Assembly (NCBI RefSeq): GCF_001375555.1
Contig: NZ_CTDZ01000009.1
Coordinates: 2,845,758-2,909,757 of the forward strand
Length of the DNA: 64,000 bases
Direction of reading: 5' to 3'
From: Numidum massiliense
GTDB lineage: Bacteria > Bacillota > Bacilli > Thermoactinomycetales > Novibacillaceae
Shown: one piece after another, positions 11,767 through 62,399 of the stretch
How positions within the stretch are numbered: the stretch's first letter is position 1
Layout of the letters: each line of letters begins with the position of its first letter
Program-made: the position numbers and the translations under genes
The notes under the pieces: model-generated
Seen by the model: the letters and a program-made list of their open reading frames with translations, nothing else
Database searches by the model: none
What the model was told of the DNA's origin: nothing

Positions 11767-13232
11767 TGTTCTTCCTCCCGTATCTTGCCGCGCTCTGCCC
11801 GCTCTGAAAGCTCTTTTTCCGCAGGGTTGTTTTTAAACATGCGCCTGAGGATGACGACAGTGATGATGCCAAGTACGAGATAGAGTAACACAAAGGCGAG
11901 AAATACCGTACCGACGTTGTCCGCCGTCGTCGCTCCTTCCCCCGTTCTCATAATGCCGCGCAACACCCACGGCTGTCGTCCTACTTCGGCAAAAATCCAC
12001 CCTAATTCGATCGTCAGCATCGCGAGCGGACCGCCGACTGCGATTGCCCACAGCAACCACTTCGGAACAGCGGGCGCGCGCCGGATGTCCGCCTCGTCTA
12101 AAGATGCGTCACGGGCGCCTAAGTCTCGATCTGTCGCTTGATCGCGTCGAGTAACTTTGCGCCTCTTACGCACCTTCCGCAAATACCATCCAACGAACAC
12201 CCCGGAAACAACTATTAAATAAAAACCGTTGACGACCTTCGAGTCAAATAAGTAATGCACATACAACGGAGGCCACTCATCGCGCGGAAAGTCATTTAAG
12301 CCGACGACTTCCGTATTTGGATGCGTGCCGGCCAAAATGCTGAGCGCGTACGGAATCGTAATCGCGCCTTTCACTTCCTGCGTCTCTTTATCAAGGAAGC
12401 CACCAAACACTAACGGTGCCTGCCGTCTCGTCTCGAAGTGCCATTCAGCAGCAGCAAGCTTTTCCGGTTGATGCTTAGCGAGGAATTTTCCGGACAAATC
12501 GCCGTTAACGATTGTGAAGAGCGCAAAGACGAAAGCACAAACCATCGTCAGTTTTAACGCTTTACGGTAATAGATGTGCACACGTCCGCGCAACATTGCT
12601 AGCGCAGCAATCGCAGCGAGAATAAATGCCGTCGTCACATAAATGGCGAATAAAAAGTGGGAAACTTTGGACGGAGTCGCCGGATTGAACATCGCAGCGA
12701 GCGGCCTTACATTGACGATTTGTCCGTCTACGAGATCAAAGCCAGTAGGGGTGTTCATAAACGCGTTAACCGACGTAATGAAGACAGCGGACGCAAGCGA
12801 TCCGAAGACGACTGGCAGCGACAACAACCAATGGTAAAGTGGCCGTTTGAAGCGATCCCACGTGTATAAGTAAATGCCGAGAAAGATCGCCTCAATAAAA
12901 AAGGCGAACGTCTCCATAAACAGTGGTAAAGCGATCGCCTGGCCGGCGACGCGCATAAAGCTCGGCCACAGCAAACTAAGCTGTAACCCGATCGCCGTAC
13001 CTGTTACGACTCCGACCGCGACCGTAATCGTAAACCCACGCGACCAACGCCGCGCCATGAGCACATAGTGCGGGTCATTGCGCCTAATGCCGATCCACTC
13101 CGCCAGCGAGACGAAGAGCGGCACCCCGACCCCAAGTACGGCGAAAATAATGTGAAAGGCGAGTGTCGTCTCCGTAAGCGCCCGCGCTAGCGTCACATTG
13201 TCGAAGGTGCCACTACTAAATAAACTGAACAT
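11757..13232 (-). CDS. cydA: Cytochrome bd ubiquinol oxidase subunit I
   Basis: 491 residues, nine membrane helices. Heme ligand candidates: His27 in TTLAFHIIFAVLGVGVPL and the later His in the AEWHFETRR/FLFAIYVT region; the quinol region contains GDLSGKFLAKHQPEK, and the motif GRQPWVLRGIMRT is present. The Q-loop is short, as in Firmicutes. A C-terminal basic tail (KIREEEQWR) overlaps the cydB start. It catalyses quinol oxidation and oxygen reduction under low oxygen. Confidence 0.95.
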   Translation of the reverse strand: MFSLFSSGTFDNVTLARALTETTLAFHIIFAVLGVGVPLFVSLAEWIGIRRNDPHYVLMARRWSRGFTITVAVGVVTGTAIGLQLSLLWPSFMRVAGQAIALPLFMETFAFFIEAIFLGIYLYTWDRFKRPLYHWLLSLPVVFGSLASAVFITSVNAFMNTPTGFDLVDGQIVNVRPLAAMFNPATPSKVSHFLFAIYVTTAFILAAIAALAMLRGRVHIYYRKALKLTMVCAFVFALFTIVNGDLSGKFLAKHQPEKLAAAEWHFETRRQAPLVFGGFLDKETQEVKGAITIPYALSILAGTHPNTEVVGLNDFPRDEWPPLYVHYLFDSKVVNGFYLIVVSGVFVGWYLRKVRKRRKVTRRDQATDRDLGARDASLDEADIRRAPAVPKWLLWAIAVGGPLAMLTIELGWIFAEVGRQPWVLRGIMRTGEGATTADNVGTVFLAFVLLYLVLGIITVVILRRMFKNNPAEKELSERAERGKIREEEQWR

Positions 13233-13322
13233 GCCTTAAGTCACTCCTGCCTATCCTTCCACTCACGATCATCTTGCGATGCTAAGGGATATGTTTTTCC
13301 GTGCCCTTACGATGTGATAGTC

Positions 13323-13349
13323 GGTAACTACTCATCGTTAGTAGTTACC
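13323..13349. promoter_or_regulatory. Perfect 10-bp dyad between cydA and the aldolase gene
   Basis: GGTAACTACT (13323-13332), seven-base spacer, AGTAGTTACC (13340-13349). Both flanking genes are on the minus strand, so it lies downstream of the fru operon and about 90 bases upstream of cydA. The T-run (CTTTTTG) follows only on the plus strand, so it is not a normal minus-strand terminator; it may be an operator for cydAB or an end hairpin for the fru transcript. Confidence 0.55.
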
Positions 13350-13431
13350 AACTTTTTGCAGGATATGAGTACAGGAGTTATTTTTTCGTGAGACTGTCAC
13401 TTGTTGTACCTGTGTTGTGTACGTACTAGTA

Positions 13432-14813
<1,382 letters not shown>

Positions 14814-14871
14814 GGCAATACACTCCCTTTAAACGCTAAATCAAATGCGGTGCGTTGCTTTACATAACCTG

Positions 14872-16281
14872 TTAAGCTGCCGTCGCTTTTTTCTTTCGGT
14901 ACAAGCCGTACAGTACAGCGCCGACGAGCGACCCAACTAAAATCGCCAATACCCACTGGAACGCCCCAGTGACGACTGGAAGGACTAAGAAGCCGCCATG
15001 CGGTGCCGGTACTTGCACTCCGAACAAATACGTGAGTACCGCCGAAATGGACGAGCCGACCATTAAAATCGGGATGACGACGAGCGGGTTTTTGGCCGCG
15101 AACGGAATGGCGCCTTCCGTAATGTGCGTCGATCCCAAAATAAAGTTGACTAAACCGGCGTTGCGCTCCGACGCATCGAAATACTTTCTAAAGAAAACGG
15201 TCGCAAATGCGATGACGAGTGGCGGCGTAATACACGCAGCGGAAACGCCGGCCATAAAATAGTGATTCCCTTCCGCCAATAACGCTGTCCCTGTCACATA
15301 AGCCGCCTTGTTCACGGGACCACCCATATCAAACGCACTCATGCAGCCGACAATAATCCCGAGCAATACCGGGTTAGCCCCTTGGAAGTCAGACAGAAAC
15401 GCTTTCATTGCTTCGTTAATGCCTGTCATCGGCTCAACAAGCACGACCATGATAGCGCCGATTAAGAAAATCCCAATGACTGGATACAGGAAAATAGCTT
15501 TTAAACCGTCGAGCGATTGCGGTAGCTTACTAAACACCTTTGACAGCAAAACGACGATGTATCCGGCGAGAAAACCAGCGACGATCCCGCCGAGAAAACC
15601 GGCGCCACCAGTGTGGGCAATCATCCCACCGATAAAACCGACGACTAAACCCGGCCGTTTCGCAATCGATTCAGCGATAAACGCGGCCAAAACGGGGACC
15701 ATCAGTTCAAAGGCAATTCCGCCGGTACTCTTTAAAAACTCTGCGATCGGATGATACGTTTCGTGTTTCGGATCGAACGCGTGAATGCCGAATAAGAAGG
15801 AGACGGCAATGAGCACACCGCCACCGACGACGAACGGCAACATGTGGGAAACGCCGTTCATTAAATGCTTGTAAATCGCCCGACCGACTTTATTCCCTTG
15901 CATCTGTTCCGTATCGTTTTGTCTCCCATTGCGCGATGGTGCGTCGCCGTTAGTTGCACGGTACGGTTTCGCTTTCCCGTCTACGATGAGCTGGATCAGC
16001 TGTTCCGCATCTTTGATTGCCCGCGCCACCGGGACATCGACGGCCGGCTTTCCGGCGAACCGTTCCGCTTGCACGTCTTTGTCCGCCGCAATAATGACTC
16101 CGTCCGCCGCATCGATGTCGGCTTGAGTCAACTCGTTTTCTACCCCAACTTGTCCGTGCGTCTCTACTTTAATCTCGACGCCGAGCTTTACTGCCGCTTT
16201 TTTTAAAGCTTCTTCGGCCATAAACGTATGCGCGATCCCCGTCGGACAACCAGTAGCAGCCACAATTTTAAGCTTACTCAT
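14872..16281 (-). CDS. fruA: PTS fructose-type EIIBC component
   Basis: 469 residues from ATG at 16281 (AAAGGCGG upstream). The EIIB domain has the phospho-Cys in ATGCPTGIAHT (residue 12); a polar linker near residue 105-125 leads to an EIIC domain of eight to ten helices (PFVVGGGVLIAVSF, GGPVNKAAY, GSTHITEGAIPFA). It imports and phosphorylates a ketohexose, most likely fructose to fructose 1-phosphate, in line with the 1-phosphofructokinase gene directly upstream. EIIA is separate. Confidence 0.92.
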   Translation of the reverse strand: MSKLKIVAATGCPTGIAHTFMAEEALKKAAVKLGVEIKVETHGQVGVENELTQADIDAADGVIIAADKDVQAERFAGKPAVDVPVARAIKDAEQLIQLIVDGKAKPYRATNGDAPSRNGRQNDTEQMQGNKVGRAIYKHLMNGVSHMLPFVVGGGVLIAVSFLFGIHAFDPKHETYHPIAEFLKSTGGIAFELMVPVLAAFIAESIAKRPGLVVGFIGGMIAHTGGAGFLGGIVAGFLAGYIVVLLSKVFSKLPQSLDGLKAIFLYPVIGIFLIGAIMVVLVEPMTGINEAMKAFLSDFQGANPVLLGIIVGCMSAFDMGGPVNKAAYVTGTALLAEGNHYFMAGVSAACITPPLVIAFATVFFRKYFDASERNAGLVNFILGSTHITEGAIPFAAKNPLVVIPILMVGSSISAVLTYLFGVQVPAPHGGFLVLPVVTGAFQWVLAILVGSLVGAVLYGLYRKKKATAA

Positions 16282-16298
16282 CTGTATCGACACCGCCT

Positions 16299-17225
16299 TT
16301 AATATGATAAATGTTTGACTCTCACTTGCTGCGCCAATGTCTCGAGATTTGTCAAGTCACTTACCCCTTTGGAAAAAGCTGTCGACGCACCTGCTGCCGA
16401 AGCGTATACCATCGCTGTTTCGACCGTCTGCCCAGCCGATCGCTTGGCGAGAAACGTAGCGAGCAACGTATCGCCGGCACAGGCCGAATTGACGGCTTCT
16501 CCTGGCACAGACGACACGTACAACACGCAATCGGGGGAGAAATACATGGAGCCGCGTGCGCCTAACGAAACGATCACTTGCCTCGCCCCCCTTTGCAGCA
16601 ACTCTTTTCCATACCTTACAATTTGTTCATCGCTTAGCATGTCGCGTGAGTCGCAATCAAAGAAATGCGCCAGTTCTTCTTCGTTCGGTTTAATTACATA
16701 CGGATGAAACGGTAAACAATCCAACACTTTTTTTGAACTCGTATCGAGGACGAACTTTAACTGATGCCGTGCGGCAATTTGCGCCATCTCGACAAAAATG
16801 TGTGCATCTACCCCCGGAGGAAGACTGCCCGAGACGACGAGTGTACTTCCACCTGGAAGTGCCTTTATTTTTTCTAGCACGGCTTGCACGTTGTCTTCGG
16901 AAATGCGGGGCCCTCTGTTAACAATTTTGTATTCTTCGTCGGCACGTACAAAAATGTTCACTCGCGTAATGCCAGCAACGTCGACAAAGTCGGTCGCGAT
17001 CCCTTGTCGTCGTAACTCGTCCTTAATGTAGGCGCCGGTGAAACCGCCCACAAAACCGAGCGCCACACTGTCAACGCCTAAATGTTTTAACGCTACGGAC
17101 ACATTAATCCCTTTGCCGTTCGCTTGATAGTCTTCTTCATAGGTGCGATTGACAATGTCTGGTTTAAGGGCTTCCATGGCAACAAATAAATCGATCGCTG
17201 CGTTTAGCGTACAGGTGTAAATCAT
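16299..17225 (-). CDS. fruK: 1-Phosphofructokinase (PfkB family)
   Basis: 308 residues; ATG at 17225 has GGAGGGGG about eight bases upstream. PfkB/ribokinase-fold kinase: N-terminal YTCTLNAAIDLFV, GKGINVS, FVGGFTGAYI, VSGSLPPGV, and the C-terminal catalytic motif SACAGDTLLATF with the Asp base. It phosphorylates fructose 1-phosphate to the 1,6-bisphosphate, linking the PTS product to the aldolase encoded at the end of the operon. A tagatose-6-phosphate kinase (LacC) role is a less likely alternative. Confidence 0.9.
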   Translation of the reverse strand: MIYTCTLNAAIDLFVAMEALKPDIVNRTYEEDYQANGKGINVSVALKHLGVDSVALGFVGGFTGAYIKDELRRQGIATDFVDVAGITRVNIFVRADEEYKIVNRGPRISEDNVQAVLEKIKALPGGSTLVVSGSLPPGVDAHIFVEMAQIAARHQLKFVLDTSSKKVLDCLPFHPYVIKPNEEELAHFFDCDSRDMLSDEQIVRYGKELLQRGARQVIVSLGARGSMYFSPDCVLYVSSVPGEAVNSACAGDTLLATFLAKRSAGQTVETAMVYASAAGASTAFSKGVSDLTNLETLAQQVRVKHLSY

Positions 17226-17276
17226 TGTTACCACCCCCTCCCTAACCTCATTATGTCATACGAATGGGTGCACGTG

Positions 17277-17293
17277 TTTACAGCCTGTGTAAA
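17277..17293. promoter_or_regulatory. Candidate fru operon operator
   Basis: TTTACA-GCCTG-TGTAAA, a perfect 6-5-6 dyad, lies 52 bases before the fruK start and downstream of the regulator's terminator, where an operator for the RpiR-type regulator would be expected. A CATAAT candidate -10 lies between the dyad and the gene. Confidence 0.5.
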
Positions 17294-17333
17294 GGTTTTC
17301 GTGCATCGTGCCATAAGAGCAGGAATAATGCCA

Positions 17334-17373
17334 TAAAAAAATGCCCCTCCGAAATACAAGTGTCGTCGGGGCG
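17334..17373 (-). terminator. Terminator between the regulator and fruK
   Basis: On the minus strand a GCCCCGACGA / TCGGAGGGGC-type stem (outer arms 17368-17372 and 17343-17347) is followed by ATTTTTTTATGG. It separates the regulator gene from the fru operon, so fruK must have its own promoter. Confidence 0.75.
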
Positions 17374-17472
17374 TGAATAAAAAAACAGCGCGGCTTATAT
17401 GGTAAAAGACGGTACAGGTGCTACATTGACCTTCGATAGTACATGCAGTTACTGCCTGTTGAATTGTCGTTC

Positions 17473-18249
17473 TCACAACATACGAATGACGTACGCATCC
17501 AACAAAATGCGCGACAGGACGTGCAAAGGTAAGCGTGAGCGCACTTCGTAGTCGGGGAAAAAAGAGTGCGCACTTTTATAACCAACCAACACCATTTCCG
17601 ATAACTTCGCTAAAGTAGAATCGACCTTCGTCGTCAACGTGAGCGTGCTAATATTTTTGATCTTAAAGTTTTTACAGGCTTCCACTAATTCAATCGTTTC
17701 GCCGTTTAACGACACGAAAATGACGACATCTTTGACGTGCAGTTTACGCGATTTGACGCGAATAATGTTCGGATCGGTATGCATCTCGCAATTTTTACCA
17801 ATCAGCTGTAGTTTTACCGTTATTTCATTACCAATCATTTCCGAGAAGCCACGAGCAAAAACGTAAACTTTTTCTGCATCGTATATTTTTTGAATCGCAT
17901 CTTCGATATTACCGATGTTGAGCATTTGAATCGTCTTTAACACTTCGCGCTCATTTTTCTCGATTGCACCCTTGATTTGACTATCGATGTCTTCCATCGT
18001 ATTTTTCTCGCTTGACGCTTTTATTTTGTCGCGAATGCTGTATTTGAAGGACGTGTAGCCTTGGAAGCCAATTTTCTTCATCAATCTAACGATCGTCGCC
18101 GTGGAAACATTCGCTTCTTCGCTCAAGGAAACGATCGACATGTCTGCGATTCCCTCGATATGGTCGTAAATGTATTGGAGCAAGTGTCGTTCGGAGTCAC
18201 TTAATAGCTTAAGCTTTTCATAAGGGATGTCGAAAATGATGTTATCCAT
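17473..18249 (-). CDS. RpiR/MurR-family transcriptional regulator
   Basis: 258 residues from ATG at 18249, with GAGGAAGG upstream; the longer frame upstream has no support. N-terminal helix-turn-helix (LSDSERHLLQYI ... SLSEEANVSTATIVRLMKKIGFQG) and C-terminal SIS sugar-phosphate-binding domain (KVYVFARGFSEMIG, DVVIFVSLNGETIE). RpiR proteins sense phosphosugars. Located just upstream of the fru genes in the same direction and therefore their likely regulator, with the dyad at 17277-17293 as candidate site. Confidence 0.88.
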   Translation of the reverse strand: MDNIIFDIPYEKLKLLSDSERHLLQYIYDHIEGIADMSIVSLSEEANVSTATIVRLMKKIGFQGYTSFKYSIRDKIKASSEKNTMEDIDSQIKGAIEKNEREVLKTIQMLNIGNIEDAIQKIYDAEKVYVFARGFSEMIGNEITVKLQLIGKNCEMHTDPNIIRVKSRKLHVKDVVIFVSLNGETIELVEACKNFKIKNISTLTLTTKVDSTLAKLSEMVLVGYKSAHSFFPDYEVRSRLPLHVLSRILLDAYVIRML

Positions 18250-18354
18250 GTAAGTGCCTTCCTCATCCGCTGAATAGTTGATCTTGAAACAACTTTTTAA
18301 TGTCGACACGTTGTAGATGACACATTGTGGACCGCTACGATGCGGGCAAAAACC

Positions 18355-18572
18355 GTGTGACACGATCGATTACGACGAATAACAAATGAGCCGCCAGCCG
18401 CACTGTTAGCGCGTCCCGATCCAAGCGCAGGATAAACTTTCGCTATGTCAAAACTTGACACGTTTCCACTAGTGACGATTTCCTCGATTAAATGTTTGGC
18501 AGTATTCGGATCCAACCCGAACGGCGTCGGTGCACTTACGCCGGGCGCACAACCATCTGCTAAACGATACAT
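18355..18572 (-). pseudogene. Remnant of hutG (formimidoylglutamase) C-terminus
   Basis: A minus-strand frame reads APGVSAPTPFGLDPNTAKHL and VSSFDIAKVYPAL, which is the C-terminal part of arginase/formimidoylglutamase proteins (normally F-D-x-x-E-V-N-P-A-L). The catalytic metal-binding half is absent and the end is degenerate. No other hut genes are nearby. It is a decayed relic, not a functional gene. Confidence 0.65.
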
Positions 18573-18761
18573 TTGGATCACCTACTAGCCTCGTTTTATC
18601 CTGCGGATGATACCGATTTTTTTGTGATATCCCTCGTATGATGCCCATTTTTAGTATAGCGGATGGGAGCGACGTCGTTCAAGCAAGTTATTTGCATTTT
18701 ATTACATAATTCAACATTGTACAATCGATACTTTCAGTTTATTACACCGCAATAAATCCAG

Positions 18762-18790
18762 TTGAAAAAAGCGCTTCCACATACCATAAT
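18762..18790 (+). promoter_or_regulatory. Promoter of the diheme cytochrome gene
   Basis: TTGAAA (18762-18767) and CATAAT (18785-18790) are 17 bases apart, 64 bases before the chosen start. A TATAAT (in GATATAATAC) stands a little further downstream as an alternative -10. The spacer holds AAGCGCTT, a short palindrome. Confidence 0.6.
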
Positions 18791-18854
18791 ATGAGATATA
18801 ATACAATATACAGAGGTGAACATTGTTTGACATTAAGTGAAGAGGGGGATTTAC

Positions 18855-19700
18855 GTGTTCAAGAAGCTGTCCTTTAACAAAGTGTTAGTTGTCATCGTTA
18901 CAATCGGCCTCGTCGTCATCGGATCGATATTTATTTATGAGATGAGTGGAACCGTAAAAGCTGACTCCGCAATGCCGCAGCCTCCGAGTATTGACGATGT
19001 CCCGCACGATGCAACAGGTGAATCTATTATGTATGGATACCGTATTTTAAAAGAGACGCAAAGTGCTTTGCCGCCAGAGTACATCGGTAATGCACTCTCT
19101 TGTTCTAGTTGCCACGCGATCGAGGGACGTAAAGAAACGGCGATCCCGCTCGTCGGGGTTACAGTGGCATACCCGCAATACCGCTCCCGCGAAGATCGAG
19201 TCATGTCTGTCGAAGACCGCGTGAACGGCTGTATGATTCGTAGCATGAACGGCCAAGAACTCCCCGAAGATTCGAAAGAAATGCGCGCACTCGTCGACTA
19301 TATCACTTACATTTCGTCTAACGTCCCCCAAGACAGCAACACGCCGTGGCTCGGTCGAAACGCGCTAAAAAACGCGCCAGAGCCAAATATCGCCCGTGGC
19401 GAAGAGTTGTACAATAAGTCGTGCATTGCGTGTCACGCCTCCGATGGCTCGGGCATCGGGCCGACAATTGGGCCAGCCTTATGGGGCGAAGGGTCGTTCA
19501 ACGACGGCGCCGGGCTAGCGCGCTTTTCGAACCTCGTCGGGTTCATTAAGCGCAACATGCCGCTCGGAAGGGGAGGCACATTAACTGAACAACAAGCGGC
19601 CGATTTAGCCGGATTTATTCTCTCGCACGACCGCCCGGAATTTAAATGGAAAGAAGGAGACTGGCCCAAAGGGGGTAAACCGTCCGATTCTCCGTATTAA
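18855..19700 (+). CDS. tsdA: Diheme cytochrome c, thiosulfate dehydrogenase (TsdA) family
   Basis: 281 residues. GTG at 18855 is preferred (AGAGGGGG six bases upstream) over GTG at 18837. One N-terminal membrane helix (VLVVIVTIGLVVIGSIFIY) anchors it outside the cell. Two heme c sites: CSSCH and CIACH. TsdA-type features between them: EDRVNGCMIRSMNGQELP and DSKEMRALVDYITYIS; the Cys in NGCM is at the place of the unusual axial heme ligand of TsdA. The enzyme couples two thiosulfates to tetrathionate (or the reverse) and passes electrons to the respiratory chain. It stands alone on the plus strand; no sox genes are near. A related SoxA-like or generic c-type cytochrome role cannot be excluded. 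Confidence 0.82.
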   Translation: MFKKLSFNKVLVVIVTIGLVVIGSIFIYEMSGTVKADSAMPQPPSIDDVPHDATGESIMYGYRILKETQSALPPEYIGNALSCSSCHAIEGRKETAIPLVGVTVAYPQYRSREDRVMSVEDRVNGCMIRSMNGQELPEDSKEMRALVDYITYISSNVPQDSNTPWLGRNALKNAPEPNIARGEELYNKSCIACHASDGSGIGPTIGPALWGEGSFNDGAGLARFSNLVGFIKRNMPLGRGGTLTEQQAADLAGFILSHDRPEFKWKEGDWPKGGKPSDSPY

Positions 19701-19713
19701 GAAAAATGAGTAC

Positions 19714-19749
19714 AGACCCGTCTGGTCTCGCGTTCAACCCGGCGGGTCT
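19714..19749. terminator. Weak hairpin between tsdA and yitT
   Basis: AGACCCG (19714-19720) pairs with CGGGTCT (19743-19749) across a 22-base loop, between two convergent genes. The T-runs are poor on both sides. Just beyond, TAACGCGATAAACAGCTG-like words are repeated twice (19766-19800). Confidence 0.4.
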
Positions 19750-19807
19750 TATCGATTCAGCTGCTTAACGCGATAAACAGCTGTCTAACGCAATAAATTG
19801 TTGCAGA

Positions 19808-20686
19808 CTAATGAATATCCCGTTTCTTGAACTGGCCGCCTTTAACGTCGTGAATGTCGCCGATCGCTAGAAACGCCTGACTGTCGAACTCGTCGACGAT
19901 CGCTTTCAACTTCGCTTCTTCCAGCCTGGTGACGACGCAAAAAATCATCTTTTTCTCGTCCCCGGTATAGCCACCTTCCCCATTGAGGTAAGTAACCCCC
20001 CGCCCTAATCGGTGGAGAAGCGCCTCGCCGATCTCTTGGTGACGGTCGCTAATAATCCATACCGACTTGGTCGAATCGAAACCTTCAATGACGATGTCCA
20101 TCATTTTATAGGCGATAAAATAAGCGATCAAGGAGTACATCGCATGATTCCAACCGAAAACAAACCCGGCACTCCCCAAAATAAAAATGTTAAAAAACAT
20201 AATGACTTCGCCCACAGAAAAAGGAAGCTTCTTATTGAACAAAATCGCCATGATTTCCGTCCCGTCGAGTGAGCCGCCGTTTTTAATGACGAGCCCGACT
20301 CCGATGCCTAACGTAATACCTCCGAACACGGCTGCTAGCAGCGGGTCGTCCGTCAACGGCTTAATGTCGTGCAACTGGACCGTTCCGATCGACATAATGA
20401 CGACACCGAACACAGCCGAAATAGTAAACGTTTTGCCAATCTGCTTGTATCCTAAAAAGAAAAATGGAAAGTTAAGGACGAACAGGAGCAAACCTAACTT
20501 GATTTGCAAAATGTGAGACAGGATGATCGCAATCCCCGTAATCCCACCGTCGATGACTCGATTTGGAACGAGGAAAATCTCTAACGCAACGGCCATTAGC
20601 ATAGCACCGAAGACAATACATACGGCACGCCTGAGCACGTTCACCTTCGTTAACGTCTTGTGTAAATTTTTTGTCGTTGTCGCCAA
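19808..20686 (-). CDS. YitT-family membrane protein (DUF161/DUF2179)
   Basis: 292 residues. Five to six membrane helices with the YitT motifs FLVPNRVIDGGITGIAIIL and GGSLDGTEIMAILFNKK, then a cytosolic DUF2179 domain (TYLNGEGGYTGDEKKMIFCV). The paralogue family is common in Bacillales with no settled function; the C-terminal domain resembles small regulatory domains. Minus strand, alone. Confidence 0.85.
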   Translation of the reverse strand: MATTTKNLHKTLTKVNVLRRAVCIVFGAMLMAVALEIFLVPNRVIDGGITGIAIILSHILQIKLGLLLFVLNFPFFFLGYKQIGKTFTISAVFGVVIMSIGTVQLHDIKPLTDDPLLAAVFGGITLGIGVGLVIKNGGSLDGTEIMAILFNKKLPFSVGEVIMFFNIFILGSAGFVFGWNHAMYSLIAYFIAYKMMDIVIEGFDSTKSVWIISDRHQEIGEALLHRLGRGVTYLNGEGGYTGDEKKMIFCVVTRLEEAKLKAIVDEFDSQAFLAIGDIHDVKGGQFKKRDIH

Positions 20687-20808
20687 ACGTCCACCTCGCC
20701 TTTAATGTTTTTTTTACTGTATTATTATACCACAAAAAGGCGTGTAAACTGAATAAAAAGCCTGTTACGAACCATAACACCATTTGTGTTATGTAAACCC
20801 GATGAGTA

Positions 20809-20845
20809 ATTACCCCCTGCCTTCGGTACAAAGACAGGGGGTAAT
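20809..20845 (-). terminator. Hairpin terminator after mgtE
   Basis: Perfect 11-bp stem ATTACCCCCTG (20809-20819) / CAGGGGGTAAT (20835-20845) directly behind the mgtE stop. The following minus-strand sequence is only weakly T-rich. Confidence 0.65.
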
Positions 20846-20850
20846 ATGTC

Positions 20851-21846
20851 CTAAATATTTAAATACCATGTAGCGATCGAGAAGTAAATGAGTACGCCGG
20901 TCATGTCGCACAAGGACGTAATGAGCGGTGCGCTCGCCGTGGCCGGGTCTAACTTAAGTTTGCTAAAAATAAACGGTAAGGACATGCCGATCACGGAACC
21001 GACGATCACAATACAAAGCATCGTTAAGGAAACGACAACTGCTATTTCCACCCCGCCCCGGAAAACGCCGATGAGCGACACAGCGACCCCCATCGCAACA
21101 CCTAGTAACCCCGCTACGACAAACTCTTTTCGAAACAGCTTTAGCCAATCTTGTACGCGCACATCGCCGACTGCTAACGCGCGGATCATGAGCGTCGCCG
21201 ACTGTGAGCCAGCGTTACCGCCACTGTCGACGAGTAACGGTAAGAAGAACACGAGGGAAATATAGGCCTCAATCGTATCTTCAAAATGTGCGATGCCAGC
21301 ACCGGAAAAAATGTTCATAAACACGAGTATGATGAGCCACGACACCCGTTTGCGAAACAACATAAACACACTGGCTTCTTTAACGTTTACATCTAGCCCA
21401 GAAACAGGTGCCATCTTGTGAAAGTCTTCCGTCGCCTCGTCATCGATGACGTCGATGATATCTTCAACGTGGATGATGCCCACGATGACGTCGTCTTTGT
21501 CCACGACTGGGATCGAGACGAAATCGTGCGTCCTCACTATTTTTGCAACTTCTTCTTGATCCATATCGACGGGGACAGCAATCACATCGGTCGCCATCAC
21601 CTCTACAATTTTACGCTCCGTCGGCGCGGTAAGCAATTCGCGCAAGCTAAGGACCCCAACTAAACGCCGTGCGCGATCAACCACGTGAATGTAATGCATG
21701 CCGGACATATCTTCGCCGGTCTTACGCAACTCGCGGATGACGTCGTCTGTCGTGCGCTCGCCCTCCACGACTAAAAATTGCCCGCTCATAATCGCCCCAG
21801 CCGTCTCCGCCTGGTATTGTTTTGACGTTACTGGAAATGTCACCAT
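20851..21846 (-). CDS. mgtE: Magnesium transporter MgtE, short form
   Basis: 331 residues from ATG at 21846, chosen because GAGGAGGAAG lies seven bases upstream; an ATG 27 bases further up lacks such a site. Two CBS domains (about residues 20-145) followed by five membrane helices with the MgtE pore signature PLLVDSGGNAGSQSATLMIRAL and the late DPATASAPLITSL. Usual MgtE has about 450 residues; the N-terminal superhelical MgtE_N domain is missing, as in a subgroup of the family. Imports magnesium. An M-box riboswitch with a terminator precedes the gene, so it should be expressed when magnesium is low. Confidence 0.92.
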   Translation of the reverse strand: MVTFPVTSKQYQAETAGAIMSGQFLVVEGERTTDDVIRELRKTGEDMSGMHYIHVVDRARRLVGVLSLRELLTAPTERKIVEVMATDVIAVPVDMDQEEVAKIVRTHDFVSIPVVDKDDVIVGIIHVEDIIDVIDDEATEDFHKMAPVSGLDVNVKEASVFMLFRKRVSWLIILVFMNIFSGAGIAHFEDTIEAYISLVFFLPLLVDSGGNAGSQSATLMIRALAVGDVRVQDWLKLFRKEFVVAGLLGVAMGVAVSLIGVFRGGVEIAVVVSLTMLCIVIVGSVIGMSLPFIFSKLKLDPATASAPLITSLCDMTGVLIYFSIATWYLNI

Positions 21847-22023
21847 GTCTACTTCCTCCTCTGGTGCCTCCATTTCCTACAGGAGTGGTGGAAATGGAAG
21901 CACGCATTACTTTCTACTCTGAATAATTGCTTAAACTGCCTAAAATAATTGATTGAGTAACACCTACTTGAATATGAATCACTATCCATTTGATCCATTT
22001 CACACCACCCCCTCAATAAACGA

Positions 22024-22077
22024 GAAAAAAATAAAAAAATGCATGCTCAACGAAAGAAGACGTGCGCATGCATGGCG
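22024..22077 (-). terminator. Terminator of the M-box riboswitch
   Basis: On the minus strand ATGCATGC and GCATGCAT enclose a roughly 20-base loop and are followed by TTTTTTTATTTTTTTC. It lies directly behind the M-box and about 180 bases before mgtE, as expected of an off-switch expression platform. Confidence 0.85.
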
Positions 22078-22079
22078 TG

Positions 22080-22240
22080 TTTCCCCTAGTCGTTGAGTTT
22101 TAGCACTGTACGGCATAGGATTATATCCAGCTACGTTAGAAACCACCTTAACTCGATAGTTCCTGTTGACCCATTGGCGTCTTTGGACATTTTTGGGCAG
22201 CAGCTTATCTCCGTACAGGAGCCTCACCTAACGAGGTTTA
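22080..22240 (-). ncRNA. M-box (ykoK leader) magnesium riboswitch
   Basis: The minus strand carries the conserved M-box blocks in order: CGTTAGGTGAGGCTCCTGTA, CGGAGATAAGCTGCTGCCCA, CCAAAGACGCCAATGGGTCA, GTAGCTGGATATAATCCTAT, GCCGTACAGTGCTAAAACTC and AACGACTAGGGGAAAC. This is a near-consensus magnesium-sensing RNA. High magnesium should favour the downstream terminator and stop mgtE expression. Confidence 0.96.
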
Positions 22241-22330
22241 TGAACTTTTTCCAGCCACATAAGACCTTATTACACTCTCGCTATCTTGTCAAGACGGATG
22301 ATCTCCTGCATCCGCAACCTCCCGTTAGTG

Positions 22331-22876
22331 TCACTTTAACGGTTGGGGGAAACGATCCGTGTCCCGTCCGAACAGTTTCATCACCACTTTATACGCGACG
22401 ACTGCGGCAATTGCACCGACGACAATCCCGCCGAGCACATCTGTTGGGTAATGATGACCGACGTAAATGCGCGAGAAGCCTAACAGTAAAGCGAGTAATA
22501 TGCCCACACTACCGATTTTACGGTTGTACGCCCACAGCGCTCCTGCGATTGCAAACGCCGCCGCGGTGTGGTTACTCGGAAAAGAAGGAGACGTGCTGTG
22601 CTCCAGTAATAAATTGACTTGATGTTCGCTAAAGGGCCGCGCGCGAAAGTAAACGAGACCGATGACATAGTTAACGGCTACAGCAAGAAAGGCTGCCCCG
22701 AAACCGGTGAGTGCCGCCTTCCGGTGTCCCCTAAAGGCGAGTAAGATCACGAGTGCCCCCGCAAACACGTAAGGCCCATACGTCGTCGTCAATTTCATTA
22801 ACGTGTCGCACACGTCATTTTGCCCTGCTAAACCGTTAATTGCTTCAAACAGTTGGTAATCCATAGCTGCCTCCAT
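22331..22876 (-). CDS. PAP2-family phosphatase, BcrC-like undecaprenyl-diphosphatase
   Basis: 181 residues, five to six membrane helices. The three PAP2 motifs are present: YFRARPF, SPSFPSNHTAAAFA and GFSRIYVGHHYPTDVLGG. BcrC-type enzymes dephosphorylate undecaprenyl diphosphate outside the membrane, recycling the lipid carrier for cell-wall synthesis and giving some bacitracin tolerance. The M-box begins about 90 bases behind its stop. Confidence 0.85.
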   Translation of the reverse strand: MEAAMDYQLFEAINGLAGQNDVCDTLMKLTTTYGPYVFAGALVILLAFRGHRKAALTGFGAAFLAVAVNYVIGLVYFRARPFSEHQVNLLLEHSTSPSFPSNHTAAAFAIAGALWAYNRKIGSVGILLALLLGFSRIYVGHHYPTDVLGGIVVGAIAAVVAYKVVMKLFGRDTDRFPQPLK

Positions 22877-23012
22877 CGTAAGCAGATTGTAAATAACACC
22901 CTTTTAAGTATAACTCTTTTATTATACAGTTTGTTTCAATTTGTGCAATATGCCAAGTGATCGAGGCGGCCATTTTGCAACTCGTCCATAAAAAAAGTCG
23001 ACAAAGTGTCAC

Positions 23013-23567
23013 TTATTCATTCATACTTTTTTTCCGTATTTTGTCTCGTCCTCTTACTAACAGAAAGAACAGCAACGGCACGATCAAACATAAACTAAGG
23101 ATGCTCCAAACAAGATTCGCGACACTTATCGTTTGTCCTGACCATAAACGGTAAACTGTATAAAGCGCGTACGGGAAGACGATCAACACGGAAGTAACGA
23201 CTCCCGGCGTATAGCGACGTAAATAGAGCGCTTGACCGAGGTGCGTGAAAGCGTGCAGGCCAAAGAACACGACAAACGGCAAAAAAAGGTAATATGCAGA
23301 AAAAACAGCGGCTAACACGGTCGCTAATGTGACACCACAAAAAACCCAAAACACGTCTGTCGCAAATTGCAATGTCGTCATTTGAAAACTACTAGACAAA
23401 AATTTTCTCATTCTCGGTGATATTTTTTCTAAGACGTAAGTCTGGTTTCGTTTCGTCCATTTCTCTGCGGTTAATATTTCTTCGAAGTCGTGAAACATGA
23501 AGACGACTGGAAAAAGCCACACGACACTTAACAAATCAAGGTGTGCATTCAACCAATTTAGTAGCAT
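23013..23567 (-). CDS. HXXEE-domain membrane protein
   Basis: 184 residues from ATG at 23567, with AAGGAG eight bases upstream. Begins LLNWLNAHLDLLSVVWLFPV; the H-x-x-E-E motif HDFEE near residue 26 defines the family. About five membrane helices and a basic tail (RGRDKIRKKSMNE). Function of the family is not established. It follows the tetR-type gene with only a short gap, so that regulator may control it. Confidence 0.8.
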   Translation of the reverse strand: MLLNWLNAHLDLLSVVWLFPVVFMFHDFEEILTAEKWTKRNQTYVLEKISPRMRKFLSSSFQMTTLQFATDVFWVFCGVTLATVLAAVFSAYYLFLPFVVFFGLHAFTHLGQALYLRRYTPGVVTSVLIVFPYALYTVYRLWSGQTISVANLVWSILSLCLIVPLLFFLLVRGRDKIRKKSMNE

Positions 23568-23595
23568 ATGCCCCCACTCCTTACCCTCGCAATTT

Positions 23596-24348
23596 TTAAC
23601 GTTTCTCCTCTGCCACGATGCCGTACAGAAACATCTCGGCCATCTGTTTCCCAAGTTCTACCGCGCCGATCTCTTTCGAAAACACATTATTCTCTTTTGA
23701 CAAACTATACGATCCGCTTGTAGGCCTATTTTCCTCACTTGCTAACAAGTTCATTGCGCCCAACGATGCATCTCCCGCTCTTGCATACTCATCTCCCCCT
23801 TTCGATAACTCGCTCTCCTCGTCTGACCACTCACCCGCCTCTTTCGCTAACACGTACCGCTCTGCCAATCTTTCAGATGCGGCAACGACGGATTCGGCGA
23901 TCACTGCAACGTCTAAATCGCTTTTGACTAACCCTAACCTTTGGTTTTGTGACATATTACATGCGATTTGCCCGACGATTTTTTCCCGCATCTGTTCGCG
24001 ATCCAGCGCATGGTGCAGTGCGATCTTTGATAGGTTATAATTTTCACTAAACAAGTTAAATAACGTGGCAAACGTATTGCCAATGTAAGATGGCAATTCT
24101 TGCGGCAATAGATCTGTTGCGCGTTTACCCGCATCACTAATTTGCATGAGCCGCTCGTCAAAATCGCTCAACAACTGTTCAAAGACCTCTTCTTTGCTCC
24201 TAAAGTACAAATAAAAGGCCGCCTGCGTTAATCCAGCTCTGGCAACGATGTCACTCACTTTCGTCCCTTTGTACCCTTTTTCCGCAAAAAGCGCTTCGGC
24301 TGCCGCGAGCAGCCTTTTCTTACTTTCCGCCCCAGACGTTCGTGCCAT
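23596..24348 (-). CDS. TetR-family regulator A with C-terminal insertion
   Basis: 250 residues. N-terminal TetR helix-turn-helix: SKKRLLAAAEALFAEKGYKG, AGLTQAAFYLYFRSKEEV. Residues about 172-228 form a polar low-complexity stretch (Ser, Glu, Gly, Asn) between LAERYVLAKEAG and IGAVELGKQMAEMF, where usual family members continue helix to helix; this accounts for the length over the common 190-200 residues. A perfect 20-bp palindrome stands about 100 bases upstream, probably its own operator. The HXXEE gene downstream is a likely target. Confidence 0.88.
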   Translation of the reverse strand: MARTSGAESKKRLLAAAEALFAEKGYKGTKVSDIVARAGLTQAAFYLYFRSKEEVFEQLLSDFDERLMQISDAGKRATDLLPQELPSYIGNTFATLFNLFSENYNLSKIALHHALDREQMREKIVGQIACNMSQNQRLGLVKSDLDVAVIAESVVAASERLAERYVLAKEAGEWSDEESELSKGGDEYARAGDASLGAMNLLASEENRPTSGSYSLSKENNVFSKEIGAVELGKQMAEMFLYGIVAEEKR

Positions 24349-24446
24349 CGATCATTCCCCTTTCCAGATGTTCGTACTACCGACGTTCTCCTTTGTCACG
24401 ACGTGCATTTGCCGTGTATTTACGTATATTAGCGAATGTTTCGTTG

Positions 24447-24466
24447 ATAACTAACTAGTTAGTTAT
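24447..24466. promoter_or_regulatory. Perfect 20-bp palindrome, operator candidate for TetR A
   Basis: ATAACTAACTAGTTAGTTAT is a perfect inverted repeat upstream of the minus-strand tetR gene. A minus-strand TTGACT (24478-24473) abuts it, so bound repressor would cover the promoter. Confidence 0.75.
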
Positions 24467-24555
24467 AGTTTAAGTCAATTCGTACAACAGTGCAAGGGGA
24501 AAATGCCGCCCTTTTTTCACATTTAAATGCCTTCGTCTAAAAATAAAAAAAGTGG

Positions 24556-24584
24556 TTGACACAACACTAATCGACGGTTATTAT
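24556..24584 (+). promoter_or_regulatory. Promoter of TetR B / MBL hydrolase operon
   Basis: Consensus TTGACA (24556-24561), exactly 17 bases, TATTAT (24579-24584). It lies 136 bases before the tetR start and overlaps the operator repeats. Confidence 0.85.
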
Positions 24585-24585
24585 A

Positions 24586-24612
24586 TAACCATCGGTTACT
24601 AACCATTGGTTA
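24586..24612 (+). promoter_or_regulatory. Twin 13-bp dyads, operator candidate for TetR B
   Basis: TAACCATCGGTTA (24586-24598) and TAACCATTGGTTA (24600-24612) are two tandem near-identical dyads of the form TAACC-ATY-GGTTA, 14 bases apart, starting right behind the -10 box. They would block RNA polymerase when bound, which suggests autorepression. Confidence 0.75.
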
Positions 24613-24720
24613 TCAAATGGCGTTATTGATAGAGGAGATTAAATATCGCTATTAAACGCAGTGATTAAATAGATGTCGTCCTTTAGTCGGGAGAAAAAGA
24701 ATGCGATAGGAGTTGTTACA

Positions 24721-25380
24721 ATGGCGAAAAACAGAAACGACACGCGTGCAGTAGAAACGAAACAAAGCATCCTCGATTCCGCAGCGACATTGTTTGCCTC
24801 ACGCGGCTTTGACACGGTTACCATTCGCGAAATTGCTCGCGCCGCTGGCTGCTCGCACACGACGATTTACTTGTATTACAAAGACAAACTCGACCTGCTT
24901 CAACAACTGTCGATCCCGCCACTTATCGAATTGGAGCAGCAAATGCAGACGATTTTGGACGATGGAGAGGTTACTCCGACGGAAGCGTTGCACCGCCTCA
25001 GTTATGCGTTTCTCCACTTCGCCCTGTCCAATCGCAGCATGTACCGCCTTTTCTTAACGGTGCGCGCGGGCCGGGTAGACGAAGAGCACGTGGAAATGCC
25101 CCTTAATCAACTGCGTAATCAGTTGTTCGCACATTTAAGGGAAGCCTTGCGGCGATGTTTTCCCCATGCGGGGACCGAGGCTAACCTGCTGTACACGCGT
25201 ATTTATTTTTACATGTTGCACGGCGTCATTGAAACGTATTTAGAAAGTACGGAACCGCTAGACGAACTAATAAAACGCGTTGCACCGCTACTCGACGAGG
25301 CGCTCGACGTCGTCCTGATGGGAATCCAACAGAAAGCAGCCAACGATGAGGGGTCGACAACAGAAGGAGGTAAACAATGA
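24721..25380 (+). CDS. TetR-family regulator B
   Basis: 219 residues from ATG at 24721 (AGGAG eight bases upstream). Helix-turn-helix domain: TKQSILDSAATLFASRGFDT, IARAAGCSHTTIYLYYKDKL. The C-terminal ligand domain is of the usual length. Its stop overlaps the start of the hydrolase gene. It probably represses its own operon through the twin dyads at 24586-24612. Confidence 0.9.
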   Translation: MAKNRNDTRAVETKQSILDSAATLFASRGFDTVTIREIARAAGCSHTTIYLYYKDKLDLLQQLSIPPLIELEQQMQTILDDGEVTPTEALHRLSYAFLHFALSNRSMYRLFLTVRAGRVDEEHVEMPLNQLRNQLFAHLREALRRCFPHAGTEANLLYTRIYFYMLHGVIETYLESTEPLDELIKRVAPLLDEALDVVLMGIQQKAANDEGSTTEGGKQ

Positions 25381-26114
25381 TGATGAAAAAGGTACAACTC
25401 TCGTCACACGTTTGGCGGTTAAGCAGCTGGCTGGTCGTACCGATCAACGTGTGGGTCGTCGTAGAAAAGCAAGGGGTAACACTGATCGATGCCGGCATCC
25501 CTTCGATGGCGAAAGGGATCGTCCAATTCATTGAGCAGCTAGGAGCTGGCCCACTTACAAAAGTGCTATTGACGCACGGGCACGTCGACCACGTCGGCGC
25601 ACTCGCGCACATTCGCCGCACGTACGACGTTCCCGTCTACGTCCACCGGAAGGAAATTCAGTATATGGAAGGGCAGCTCCCTTATCCGCGTCGCAAAAAG
25701 GCAGCCGCCACAGTTCCGCCCGCCCTCGTCCAACCCCTAGAGATGGACGAAAGTAGACAATTGTTACCGGTTGGCGACTTAACACCCTACTTTTCCCCTG
25801 GCCACGCGCCTGGACACGTCGTCTATTATCACAAGGAAGACGATGTGCTGCTCGCTGGCGACCTCTGTACGACGTTTGGCGGGAAACTGCGCCGCCCAAT
25901 GCCGATGTTTACGAGCAACATGGCACAAGCAATAGCCAGTTGCTCACTCATCGACACGTTGCAACCGCACCTGCTCAGCATTTGCCATGGGAAAGAAATT
26001 TATCATCCTCACGAAAAGTATGGCGCCTTCCATAAGCGTTGGCATCGTCGTACAGCAGCAACTGTGCAGCAGCGTACGGGTTCAAGCTTTGGACACACCG
26101 AAGGTGACGCTTAA
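25377..26114 (+). CDS. Metallo-beta-lactamase-fold hydrolase
   Basis: 245 residues, cytosolic. Metal site THGHVDHVG (H-x-H-x-D-H), then SPGHAPGHVVYY and LLAGDLCTTFGG with the bridging Asp, and a late His in LSICHGKEI. It belongs to the broad MBL/YflN-like group hydrolysing lactones, thioesters or similar bonds. GGAGG stands seven bases before the ATG; the start overlaps the tetR stop by four bases, so both are co-translated and the regulator probably senses a substrate of this enzyme. Substrate unknown. Confidence 0.88.
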   Translation: MMMKKVQLSSHVWRLSSWLVVPINVWVVVEKQGVTLIDAGIPSMAKGIVQFIEQLGAGPLTKVLLTHGHVDHVGALAHIRRTYDVPVYVHRKEIQYMEGQLPYPRRKKAAATVPPALVQPLEMDESRQLLPVGDLTPYFSPGHAPGHVVYYHKEDDVLLAGDLCTTFGGKLRRPMPMFTSNMAQAIASCSLIDTLQPHLLSICHGKEIYHPHEKYGAFHKRWHRRTAATVQQRTGSSFGHTEGDA

Positions 26115-26186
26115 GCCTCAAGGACTTATGACGTTCCCGCGTTTATGTCCTCGTACGTAAGCATTAGAAAGAAATTGCGCGAACTC

Positions 26187-28454
<2,268 letters not shown>

Positions 28455-28513
28455 TTAGTAATTTTTTGCTACAATGAATTTTAAGGTCATGCAGCTATTT
28501 TTAGGTTGTACAG

Positions 28514-30904
28514 TTAAAGTTTTTTCAACGGTGCAAAGCGTGCTAGTAACCGTTTCACGCCGTTCGGAGCGGGAAAAGCGACATTCAATTCGACGTCGTC
28601 GCCTGAACCGGTCACTTTGACGACAGTACCTTGGCCAAACTTGCGGTGTTCAACTTTGTCGCCAACTTTCCACGCGTCCGGAGACACATTCGGTTCGGCG
28701 ATGCGGTGCGATTTTAACAACGGTTTTTGGGCCGAGCTGCCCGCGCGCCCGCCCCCATCTCGCGAGCTGCGACTGCCGCGTTCACTGGAACTTCCCCACT
28801 CGCGGTTACCGCCTCGACTGCCCTTGCCCCAGTTATCTCGATCGCCCCGCTTGCCGAATCTGGAACCATAACTGGCGCCATTTGCTCGGCCAAACGCCTG
28901 CCGACCGCCTCCGGCCATACCGCCTTCGGAAACTTCTCCAGCCAGACCGACGTCTTCAACGAGTTCAGCCGGTATTTCCGCCAAAAAGCGCGACGGCATG
29001 TTATTCGCTGTCCGCCCGTACAACGTACGCGACTGTGCTCGGGTTAAGTATAGCCGCTGCATCGCCCGCGTGATCCCGACGTAAGCGAGGCGCCGCTCTT
29101 CTTCCAGCTCTTCCTCTTCCATCAGCGCGCGCATGTGTGGAAAGACTCCCTCTTCCATCCCGATGAGGAAGACGTGCGGAAACTCCAGCCCTTTTGCGCT
29201 GTGCAGCGTCATGAGCACGACGGCGTCTTTGCCTGCACCTTCTGTTTCATCTTCGTCCATCGTATCGATATCGGCGATGAGGGCGAGTTCGGTCAAAAAC
29301 GCCACGAGTGACTTGTCGTCGTTTTTTTGTTCAAAGTCTTGCGTGACGGAAATAAATTCGTCCACGTTCTCCAGCCGCGTCGCTGCCTCGATCGTCCCTT
29401 CGCGCTGCAGTTCTAGGCGGTATTCCGTCCGCTTTAACACTTCTTCGGTCAACTCCGTCACGGAGACGTACTCGATCATCGCATGTAGTTCGCCGACCAT
29501 TTGCCGGAAGTCGCGTAAACTGTTGACGAACCGTTTTTGCAAGCCGATGTGTTCCACTTCGGCCACCGCTTCGTAGAGGGAAAGGCCGTTTTCCGCGGCA
29601 TAGGCGGAGAGCCTGTCGACGGTCGTCTGCCCGATGCCTCGTTTCGGCACGTTCACGATGCGCGTAAAACTCAAGTCGTCGTCCGGGTTCGCCACTAAGC
29701 GCAAATAAGCGAGTAAATCTTTAATTTCTTTTCGTTCGTAGAAGCGGATCCCGCCGACGATTTGGTACGGAATGTTCGACTTGATGAGAACTTCTTCCAT
29801 GACGCGCGATTGGGCGTTCGTGCGGTACAAGATGGCAAAATCGCGGTACGCACAGCCGTCGCGCTTGCCGCTGACGATTTTGTCGACGACGTAGTACGCT
29901 TCGTCGTGTTCGCTGTACCCTTCAAAACTTTCGATCGCTGCACCTTGTTCGCCTTCGGTCCACAGTTTTTTTTCTTTGCGCTGCGCGTTGTGCGCAATGA
30001 CCTCGTTCGCCGCGTTCAGGATCGTCTGGGTGGAGCGGTAGTTTTGTTCGAGTTTAACCACTTTCGCTTGGGGGTAGTCGTGTTCAAAATTTAAGATGTT
30101 ACTAATGTCTGCTCCGCGCCATTTGTAAATTGACTGGTCGCTATCGCCGACGACACAAATGTTTTTGTGCTGTTCTGCCAGCATTTTTACTAACATATAC
30201 TGGGCGTGGTTCGTATCTTGGTACTCGTCGACGTGAATGTATTGAAACTTTTTCTGGTAAAACTGTAACACATCGGGCACTTGCCGGAACAACTCGATCG
30301 TCACCATAATTAAGTCGTCGAAATCGAGGGAGCTGTTGGCACGCAACTTATTTTGATAGGCATCGTACACATCGGCGACGACTTGTTGGAAGAGATCGCC
30401 CGCCTTTGCACGATAGGCACCAGCGTTGATCAGTTGGTTTTTCGCCTGACTAATGTGCGCGAGAATCGCCCGCGGCTCGAATTTTTTCGGGTCGAGGTTT
30501 TGCTCTTTTACAATTTGCTTTACGACGGTCAGTTGGTCGCTGCCGTCCAAAATGGTAAAGTTGCGCGAATAGCCGATGCGGTCGATGTCGCGTCGCAATA
30601 TGCGCACGCACATGGCGTGGAAAGTAGAAATCCAAATGTCTTCCGCTTCCGGTCCGACCATGCGGCTAATGCGTTCTTTCATTTCCCGCGCGGCCTTATT
30701 TGTAAACGTAATCGCCAAAATATTCCATGGGGTAACGTGCCGCTGATGCAACAAGTAGGCGACGCGGTGCGTCAATACGCGCGTCTTACCGCTGCCAGCA
30801 CCGGCGACGATGAGCAGCGGCCCTTCCGTCGCCGTTACTGCCGCACGCTGTGCGCTGTTTAAACCGCGCAACAAGTCCTCCCCTTCCGGTGTTCCAAAGT
30901 TCAT
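28514..30904 (-). CDS. pcrA: ATP-dependent DNA helicase PcrA
   Basis: 796 residues from ATG at 30904 (TTAGGAG eight bases upstream). Superfamily 1A helicase: Q motif LNSAQRAAV, Walker [58 protein letters not shown] and [12 protein letters not shown]. Unwinds DNA 3' to 5' in repair and plasmid replication and removes RecA. A Gly/Ser/Arg-rich linker (about residues 655-740) joins the core to a C-terminal Tudor-like domain ([17 protein letters not shown]) that binds RNA polymerase. pcrB-pcrA-ligA order as in B. subtilis. Confidence 0.97.
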
Positions 30905-53723: not shown

Positions 53724-53837
53724 GCTTAACGCCGCTTTGCACAGCTAAAACATAAAACCACTTCGCGCAAACCGCTTTCTGCAGCTTAGAAACCTGTCGA
53801 CTTTCGCACCGGGCATCCGACCTAGCCGTAACACTTT

Positions 53838-53910
53838 TTCCCGTAGTCCAGGAATTTACGGTTCCCGGGTAGAGACTCTCGAGCCAATTCTCGAGTATAT
53901 ACGAGAGACT
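53838..53910 (-). ncRNA. Guanine riboswitch controlling the pur operon
   Basis: The minus strand shows the purine aptamer: P1 CTCGTA/TACGGG, then TATA, P2 CTCGAGA/CTCGAG-type arms, J2/3 GTCTCTACC, the L3 ACCGTAAAT, and J3/1 GGACTACGGG. The key residue is C (GACTAC), which means guanine, not adenine. Guanine or hypoxanthine should favour termination. Confidence 0.95.
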
Positions 53911-53932
53911 ATGCGTTTTTCAGTTCACTTAC

Positions 53933-62187: not shown

Positions 62188-62322
62188 TGAGGCGATTTGT
62201 CCTACAAAAAAACCAACGCTACCTTTTCTTTAAAATAACCATTGCTCATTGCTAAAATAACCATTCCGAAGTTATGGATAAAAATGGTACATAGCCATTC
62301 ACAAAATGACGCGGTAACGTGG

Positions 62323-62399
62323 TGTTTTCGTAGTCAAGCAATTTACGGTTGCCTGGTAGAGACCGTTGGACCGTATTACCAACGATATACGAAAAGACG
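62323..62399 (-). ncRNA. Guanine riboswitch controlling pbuG
   Basis: Purine aptamer on the minus strand: P1 TTTTCGTA/TACGAAAA, then TATCGTTGG, the GGTCTCTACC joint, L3 ACCGTAAAT and TTGACTACG with the guanine-specific C. A terminator lies about 140 bases downstream. Confidence 0.95.

Follow-up and report, generated by a model that had tools for sequence, protein, structure and literature searches.

Two conserved TetR-linked modules with candidate operator arrays lie head to head in Numidum massiliense

Two genes for TetR-family regulators diverge from a short intergenic region in the genome of Numidum massiliense, and the DNA between them carries two kinds of palindrome. The locus raises the question of whether the two regulators form a single circuit or two separate switches, and of what each would control. 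We analyzed it within a stretch of 64,000 nucleotides (the window, to which all positions refer). One-component repressors of the TetR/AcrR type, among them TetR, QacR and FadR of Bacillus, have autoregulated operons, and the locus resembles them in its TetR_N helix-turn-helix (HTH) domains, its helical ligand domain, its palindromes at the regulator's own promoter and its adjacent target gene. With a probability of about three in four, as judged from sequence, the locus comprises two independent, divergent, autorepressed sensor-hydrolase operons, TetR1-HXXEE and TetR2-MBL, each released by a ligand. The genes concerned are the following.

22331-22876, minus strand: PAP2-family gene
23013-23567, minus strand: HXXEE membrane-protein gene (PF13787, E 3.1e-24; HDFEE motif)
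23596-24348, minus strand: TetR1 regulator gene, 250 aa (PF00440, E 9e-18)
24721-25380, plus strand: TetR2 regulator gene, 219 aa, with a TetR_C_33 ligand domain (PF00440 and PF13305)
25377-26114, plus strand: MBL-fold metallo-hydrolase gene, 245 aa (PF00753, E 3.3e-30)

The first-pass annotation had described two divergent TetR genes, and these indeed flank an intergenic gap of 372 bp (24349-24720). On the left, the ATG of the HXXEE gene lies 28 nt past the TetR1 stop, and TetR1 is thus not a lone gene. The HXXEE protein (Pfam query 23016-23573) is the sole HXXEE match of its own genome in a genome-wide search. Since the PAP2-family gene follows on the same strand after 136 nt, the left transcript may be longer. 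On the right, the TetR2 stop and the MBL start codon overlap in an ATGA at 25377-25380. The next gene, which by eye we take to be ligA, runs the opposite way, so the right operon consists of two genes.

Both regulators contain the TetR_N HTH domain, scoring 64.2 bits (TetR1) and 54.8 bits (TetR2) against a PF00440 cut-off of 24. TetR2 also matched PF13305 at 29.0 bits (cut-off 26.8), and its structural model has nine helices (pLDDT 92.2) with an all-helical ligand domain. The folds matched by this model (DarR, FadR, PfmR and BkaR; best E 2.1e-6) name no ligand. The locus departs from the familiar TetR/AcrR repressors in that no NCBIfam model reaches its cut-off and the outputs are predicted hydrolases rather than efflux pumps. 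Ahead of its last helix (23665-23838), TetR1 has about 55 residues, many of them Ser, Glu and Gly, that by eye are missing from its nearest homologues, L162 and L163 (196 and 206 aa).

HXXEE and MBL-fold proteins form large families with many members that have no assigned substrate. The HXXEE protein belongs to its family by score (PF13787, 86.3 bits against a cut-off of 25) and by its HDFEE motif. One member, MucF, has been reported to be a reutericyclin-cleaving acylase, encoded in the S. mutans reutericyclin cluster beside the TetR genes mucG and mucH (PMC9112991). The likeness to MucF consists of HXXEE family membership and a TetR neighbourhood; as far as that description of the mucF locus goes, the two loci differ in that the HXXEE neighbours examined in the window are the PAP2-family gene and a TetR gene.

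The MBL protein scored 105.9 bits against Lactamase_B (PF00753, cut-off 22.7), and its model has a pLDDT of 90.5. In an alignment of 27 relatives and the window's own protein (L121, L038 and L042 left out), H67, H69, D71, H72, H143, D162 and H204 are invariant in 28/28; by family pattern these seven residues are the metal ligands, and the set is complete. Naming the hydrolase by its fold was rejected: most of the Foldseek and VIA matches were beta-lactamases of the NDM and VIM types (VIA Z 23.1-23.9, 14-20% identity), and beta-lactamases are heavily represented in the PDB, so these matches were taken as evidence of fold only. That a family is missing from the list does not count against it. 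No curated NCBIfam enzyme-family model reached its cut-off for this protein. Among class B beta-lactamase models it scored 63.3 bits for bla_class_B_core (cut-off 100), 55.6 for B3 (240) and 38.2 for B1 (200).

Two proposals for its substrate can be weighed against these scores. In the first, TetR2-MBL would handle reactive thioesters or antibiotics in the manner of BLEG-1, as a substrate-induced glyoxalase II or beta-lactamase-type activity. The best solved-structure matches found by phmmer favour it: YcbL (2xf4, 4e-17), BLEG-1 (7ev5, 2.5e-16) and TTHA1623 (2zwr, 1.2e-15); the MBL protein shares with YcbL and BLEG-1 the fold and the HxHxDH...H...D...H ligands. It is nevertheless only 22% identical to BLEG-1 in the fold search, and it falls far short of the cut-offs for glyoxalase II (the GloB hydroxyacylglutathione hydrolase equivalog, 49.5 vs 200.8 bits) and for the B3 lactamases. 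A patchy distribution and TetR control are also not what one expects of housekeeping glyoxalase II genes, and they weaken the glyoxalase II reading. We therefore regard this proposal as possible but unlikely. BLEG-1 itself is described as having both glyoxalase II and beta-lactamase activities (PMC8431146, PMC10482274).

The second proposal is quorum quenching: TetR2 would sense acyl-homoserine lactones or other lactone signals, and the hydrolase would be a lactonase that opens them. An MBL fold with complete dinuclear ligands would suit such an enzyme, and the NCBIfam AiiA model does match at E 3e-8; however, the scores fall short of the cut-offs for AHL lactonases (AiiA 33.2 vs 375 bits, AttM 31.4 vs 390), the closest solved sequences are the three named above, and fold matches dominated by beta-lactamases have little bearing on substrate. 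Quorum quenching is thus quite improbable.

The intergenic region holds the following candidate operators and promoter-like sequence.

24447-24466, no strand: proposed TetR1 operator, perfect 20-bp palindrome ATAACTAACTAGTTAGTTAT (palindrome scan; dyads of relatives)
24556-24584, plus strand: promoter-like sequence of tetR2-mbl, TTGACA-17-TATTAT (11/12 matches)
24568-24580, no strand: O1 dyad TAATCGACGGTTA, one mismatch, at an offset conserved in relatives
24586-24598, no strand: O2, exact 13-bp dyad TAACCATCGGTTA, just 3' of the -10
24600-24612, no strand: O3, exact 13-bp dyad TAACCATTGGTTA, 14 bp beyond O2

The perfect 20-bp palindrome reported earlier was confirmed, and no other perfect palindrome in the window reaches 16 bp. 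Within the genome it occurs once, even allowing 3 mismatches, and its perfect 18-mer was found in no genome but its own among the 398 searched. It can be read as two overlapping 14-bp TAACT-N4-AGTTA dyads (24448-24461 and 24452-24465) shifted by 4 bp, and the same dyad stands upstream of TetR1 homologues; the comparison indicates that the useful search unit for the putative TetR1 operator is the 14-bp dyad. The promoter scan listed no minus-strand promoter-like site for TetR1.

On the tetR2-mbl side, the 17-base spacing of the promoter had been given correctly, and the consensus was overstated by one base, the -10 being TATTAT. The two 13-bp dyads (O2 and O3) are exact TAACC-N3-GGTTA, as had been claimed, but both lie downstream of the -10 and do not straddle the promoter. 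O1, which occupies the spacer and the first two bases of the -10, completes an array that encloses the -10 between O1 and O2, and O2 likely covers the predicted start point. Three short tandem dyads around a -10, offset by 18 and 14 bp, are a further difference from the familiar TetR/AcrR repressors. On the minus strand, the promoter scan also listed a hairpin that covers O1-O2 and resembles a terminator.

The first-pass annotation had suggested a search for both motifs elsewhere as a way to define regulons. Exact 13-mer dyads occur in the genome at this locus alone, and three further places have the 13-mer with one mismatch, where the controls gave 3 and 6 matches. A regulon beyond the locus was accordingly rejected, given a unique 20-mer and one-mismatch 13-mers no commoner than controls. 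What goes beyond the first-pass annotation is the TetR1-HXXEE operon, the third dyad O1 and the finding, described below, that the adjacency of the modules is not conserved.

In order to follow TetR2 independently of its sites, we scanned genome contigs with the protein; 279 relatives were confirmed, and the best 80 of the 279 were kept. Thirteen of these (L031-L043) are near full-length homologues with 39-50% identity, from Paenibacillus, Fictibacillus, Psychrobacillus and Longirhabdus. The other 67 matches are weaker and mostly N-terminal, and were excluded from operator counts; the flanks of all 67 are free of MBL and HXXEE matches (E <= 1e-5). Although the full-length homologues were found by protein alone, two or more exact TAACCN3GGTTA dyads lie upstream of 12/13. 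An MBL match lies next to 12/13 and is intact in 10/13: L035 has none, and in L038 and L042 the gene is broken. The dyads, too, are missing from L042.

The complementary search, with the O2-O3 pattern, found it in 20 of the 398 genomes of the class (6 of 146 genera, own genome included), at one place in each; the reversed pattern gave 0 matches in the 398 genomes. Every one of these arrays lies 5' of a TetR2 homologue (20/20, or 19/19 without the own genome), and the MBL gene comes next in 19/20 (18/19 without), in line with the co-translated TetR2-MBL operon proposed earlier. The exception is a single locus (L127/L161). There, as in L035, a YdjM-like membrane gene replaces MBL downstream of TetR2, and the TetR2-MBL link is therefore not absolute. 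In these two loci (L035:3742-4347 and L161:2946-3566) a TetR2 homologue with the same dyad type precedes the YdjM-like protein; the two YdjM-like proteins are 61% identical over 166 aa and score 22.6 and 26.4 bits for PF04307, under its cut-off of 29. In all 28 relatives with an intact pair, the MBL start lies between -23 and +27 nt from the TetR2 stop, and it overlaps the stop in 14/28, with start codons chosen by script. By these comparisons, the TetR2-MBL module and its candidate operator array are both conserved.

Array geometry was compared across 33 loci (the window and 32 relatives, L022/L129 counted once; TetR2 was aligned across 33 sequences, again with the window included). Since 19 of the 33 were found via the O2-O3 pattern, O2 and O3 are given there and only O1 is informative. 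An exact dyad stands at the O1 offset in 22/33. All three dyads are exact in 19/33, and 22/33, the window among them, have at most one mismatch per dyad; TTGAC lies shortly 5' of O1 in 28/33, window included. From start to start, O1 and O2 are 18 bp apart and O2 and O3 14 bp. The total of 32 bp comes close to three turns of a helix with 10.5 bp per turn, which would place O1 and O3 on one face of the DNA. Departures comprise O2-O3 without a good O1 (L038, L040, L041, L111, L126, L127 and L130), O1-O2 alone (L039), and two outer sites (L036, 32 bp apart with two mismatches in O2; L035, 34 bp). L111 is poorly fitted by the geometry script and has two exact dyads 14 bp apart.

TetR1 homologues (E <= 1e-22) were found in 41/398 genomes; not counting the window's own, there are 44 matches, and 29 of them were compared as loci (L132-L160). 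An HXXEE match lies beside 20/29. These HXXEE-linked homologues have an upstream TAACT-N4-AGTTA dyad with at most one mismatch in 20/20, exact in 19. Among the 9/29 with no HXXEE match nearby, L147 and L154 have an exact dyad, L157 a one-mismatch dyad and L156 TTACT-type dyads, and the search for TAACT dyads found none at L134, L137 and L158-L160; about 7-8 of the 29 homologues, L135 among them, are without an exact TAACT dyad. Over about 165-170 aa, TetR1 is 55% and 48% identical to its nearest relatives, whose dyads are TATAACTAACTGATTAGTTAGTTATA and ATAACTAACTGATTAGTTAT.

A tandem form of the site, TAACTN4AGTTA-NN-TAACTN4AGTTA, occurs in 17/398 genomes, the window's not among them, with 0 control matches. 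A TetR1 homologue adjoins 16/17 of these arrays and an HXXEE gene likewise 16/17. Taken together, these associations indicate that TetR1-HXXEE is a second conserved module. Comparative evidence thus supports the earlier assignment of each TetR to its own operator, TAACC arrays preceding TetR2 in 20/20 and TAACT arrays lying beside TetR1 in 16/17. In L165 (1501-1995) an HXXEE gene lies directly 3' of a tandem TAACT array with no TetR1 match adjoining; the TetR1 homologue of that genome is on another contig, which suggests control in trans. At many loci, L138-L144 for example, the TetR1 homologues share a conserved upstream stretch reminiscent of the final part of a divergent T-box leader.

The recognition helix was compared in 31 TetR1 homologues (the 29 with L025 and L026). 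LTQA is present in 25/31, and in 23 of these the TAACT dyad is either exact or one mismatch away. The other 6/31 have TQP; the search found TTACT-type dyads in three (L025, L026 and L156), and by eye the remaining three (L158-L160) have TACT-N4-AGTA. The residue after TQ, Ala or Pro, would thus track the half-site, TAACT versus TTACT or TACT. We offer this as a lead only, the related sequences not being independent.

Do the two switches act on each other? If TetR1 and TetR2 recognized each other's related half-sites, the two genes could form one cross-regulating unit whose divergent layout combines two signals. TAACT and TAACC are one base apart, contrary to the earlier description of the sites as unlike each other, and about 100 bp separates the palindrome from O1 within the same intergenic region. 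The inner gaps differ, however (4 bp in the TAACT dyad, 3 bp in the TAACC dyad). Moreover, outside the window we found no TAACC array flanked by an HXXEE match and no TAACT array flanked by an MBL match. Eight genomes carry both arrays (G184, G238, G270, G293, G317, G325, G356 and G388), and in all eight each array stays with its own operon. Since neither array turned up ahead of the other's operon outside the window, these eight genomes included, the two switches are likely insulated despite their similar half-sites. Cross-talk was thus rightly called unlikely, for a reason other than the one first given.

The arrangement itself also argues against a cross-regulating unit, which we consider very improbable. 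Fourteen other genomes carry a TAACC array and a TetR1 homologue (E <= 1e-22), and the two are adjacent in none: in 7 they are on the same contig, the nearest about 124 kb apart, and in 7 on different contigs. A conserved divergent pair was accordingly ruled out, the relatives carrying the TetR1 and TetR2 modules apart, and because adjacency is absent in these 14 genomes, the head-to-head arrangement is probably an accident of this lineage. At the thresholds used, G001, the only other genome of the family compared, has no close relative of either module; in a synteny comparison over 7 kb of that genome, nothing beyond ligA matched the window proteins of 11000-30000 (E <= 1e-8).

That the palindromes are chance or terminator-like sequence with no regulatory role is almost certainly wrong: AT-rich intergenic DNA often contains short palindromes and a terminator-like hairpin overlies O1-O2, but dinucleotide shuffles of the intergenic region reached the 20-bp palindrome length in only 16/20000 and two same-arm 13-bp dyads within 40 bp in only 30/20000, and sites and genes are conserved jointly with 0 control matches.

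Two independent operons would be expected to work as follows. TetR2 dimers would bind O1-O3, hide the -10 and the start point, and shut off tetR2-mbl until a small-molecule ligand releases TetR2 from the array. The co-translated MBL-fold hydrolase would then degrade the ligand or a close relative of it, and repression would return. The role given to this pair in the first-pass annotation, detoxification or signal degradation, is a putative one. TetR1 would act likewise on TetR1-HXXEE at its own 14-bp dyad; the membrane protein of that operon is probably a detoxifying enzyme of the MucF kind, such as a deacylase. Activation in place of repression may also be compatible with the sequence. A bolder version combines a natural orthogonal TetR1/TetR2 pair, told apart at the operators by a single half-site base and a single spacer base; a TetR2 platform with an interchangeable hydrolase, usually MBL but a YdjM-like membrane protein in two genomes; inducible detoxification of reutericyclin-like acylated natural-product antibiotics by both modules; and a sharp switch made by three cooperative dimers around the -10. 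As a whole we judge it decidedly unlikely.

In kind the locus is ordinary, two well-conserved TetR-controlled hydrolase operons by prediction. Its interest lies in the strength of that conservation, the three-dyad array and the near-identical half-sites. Two compact modules with defined candidate operators would allow ligands to be sought by simple reporter screens, and near-identical half-sites, with a helix change that tracks the half-site, offer a small natural system for TetR specificity. Among the matches listed in a search of the open-access literature, we found no paper on either operator or on a TetR-MBL pair.

Elsewhere in the window we observed an M-box magnesium riboswitch (22077-22242, minus strand) upstream of the gene at 20851-21873, which by eye resembles MgtE, and a SAM riboswitch and two purine riboswitches at 213-324, 53824-53924 and 62311-62412, respectively, all on the minus strand.
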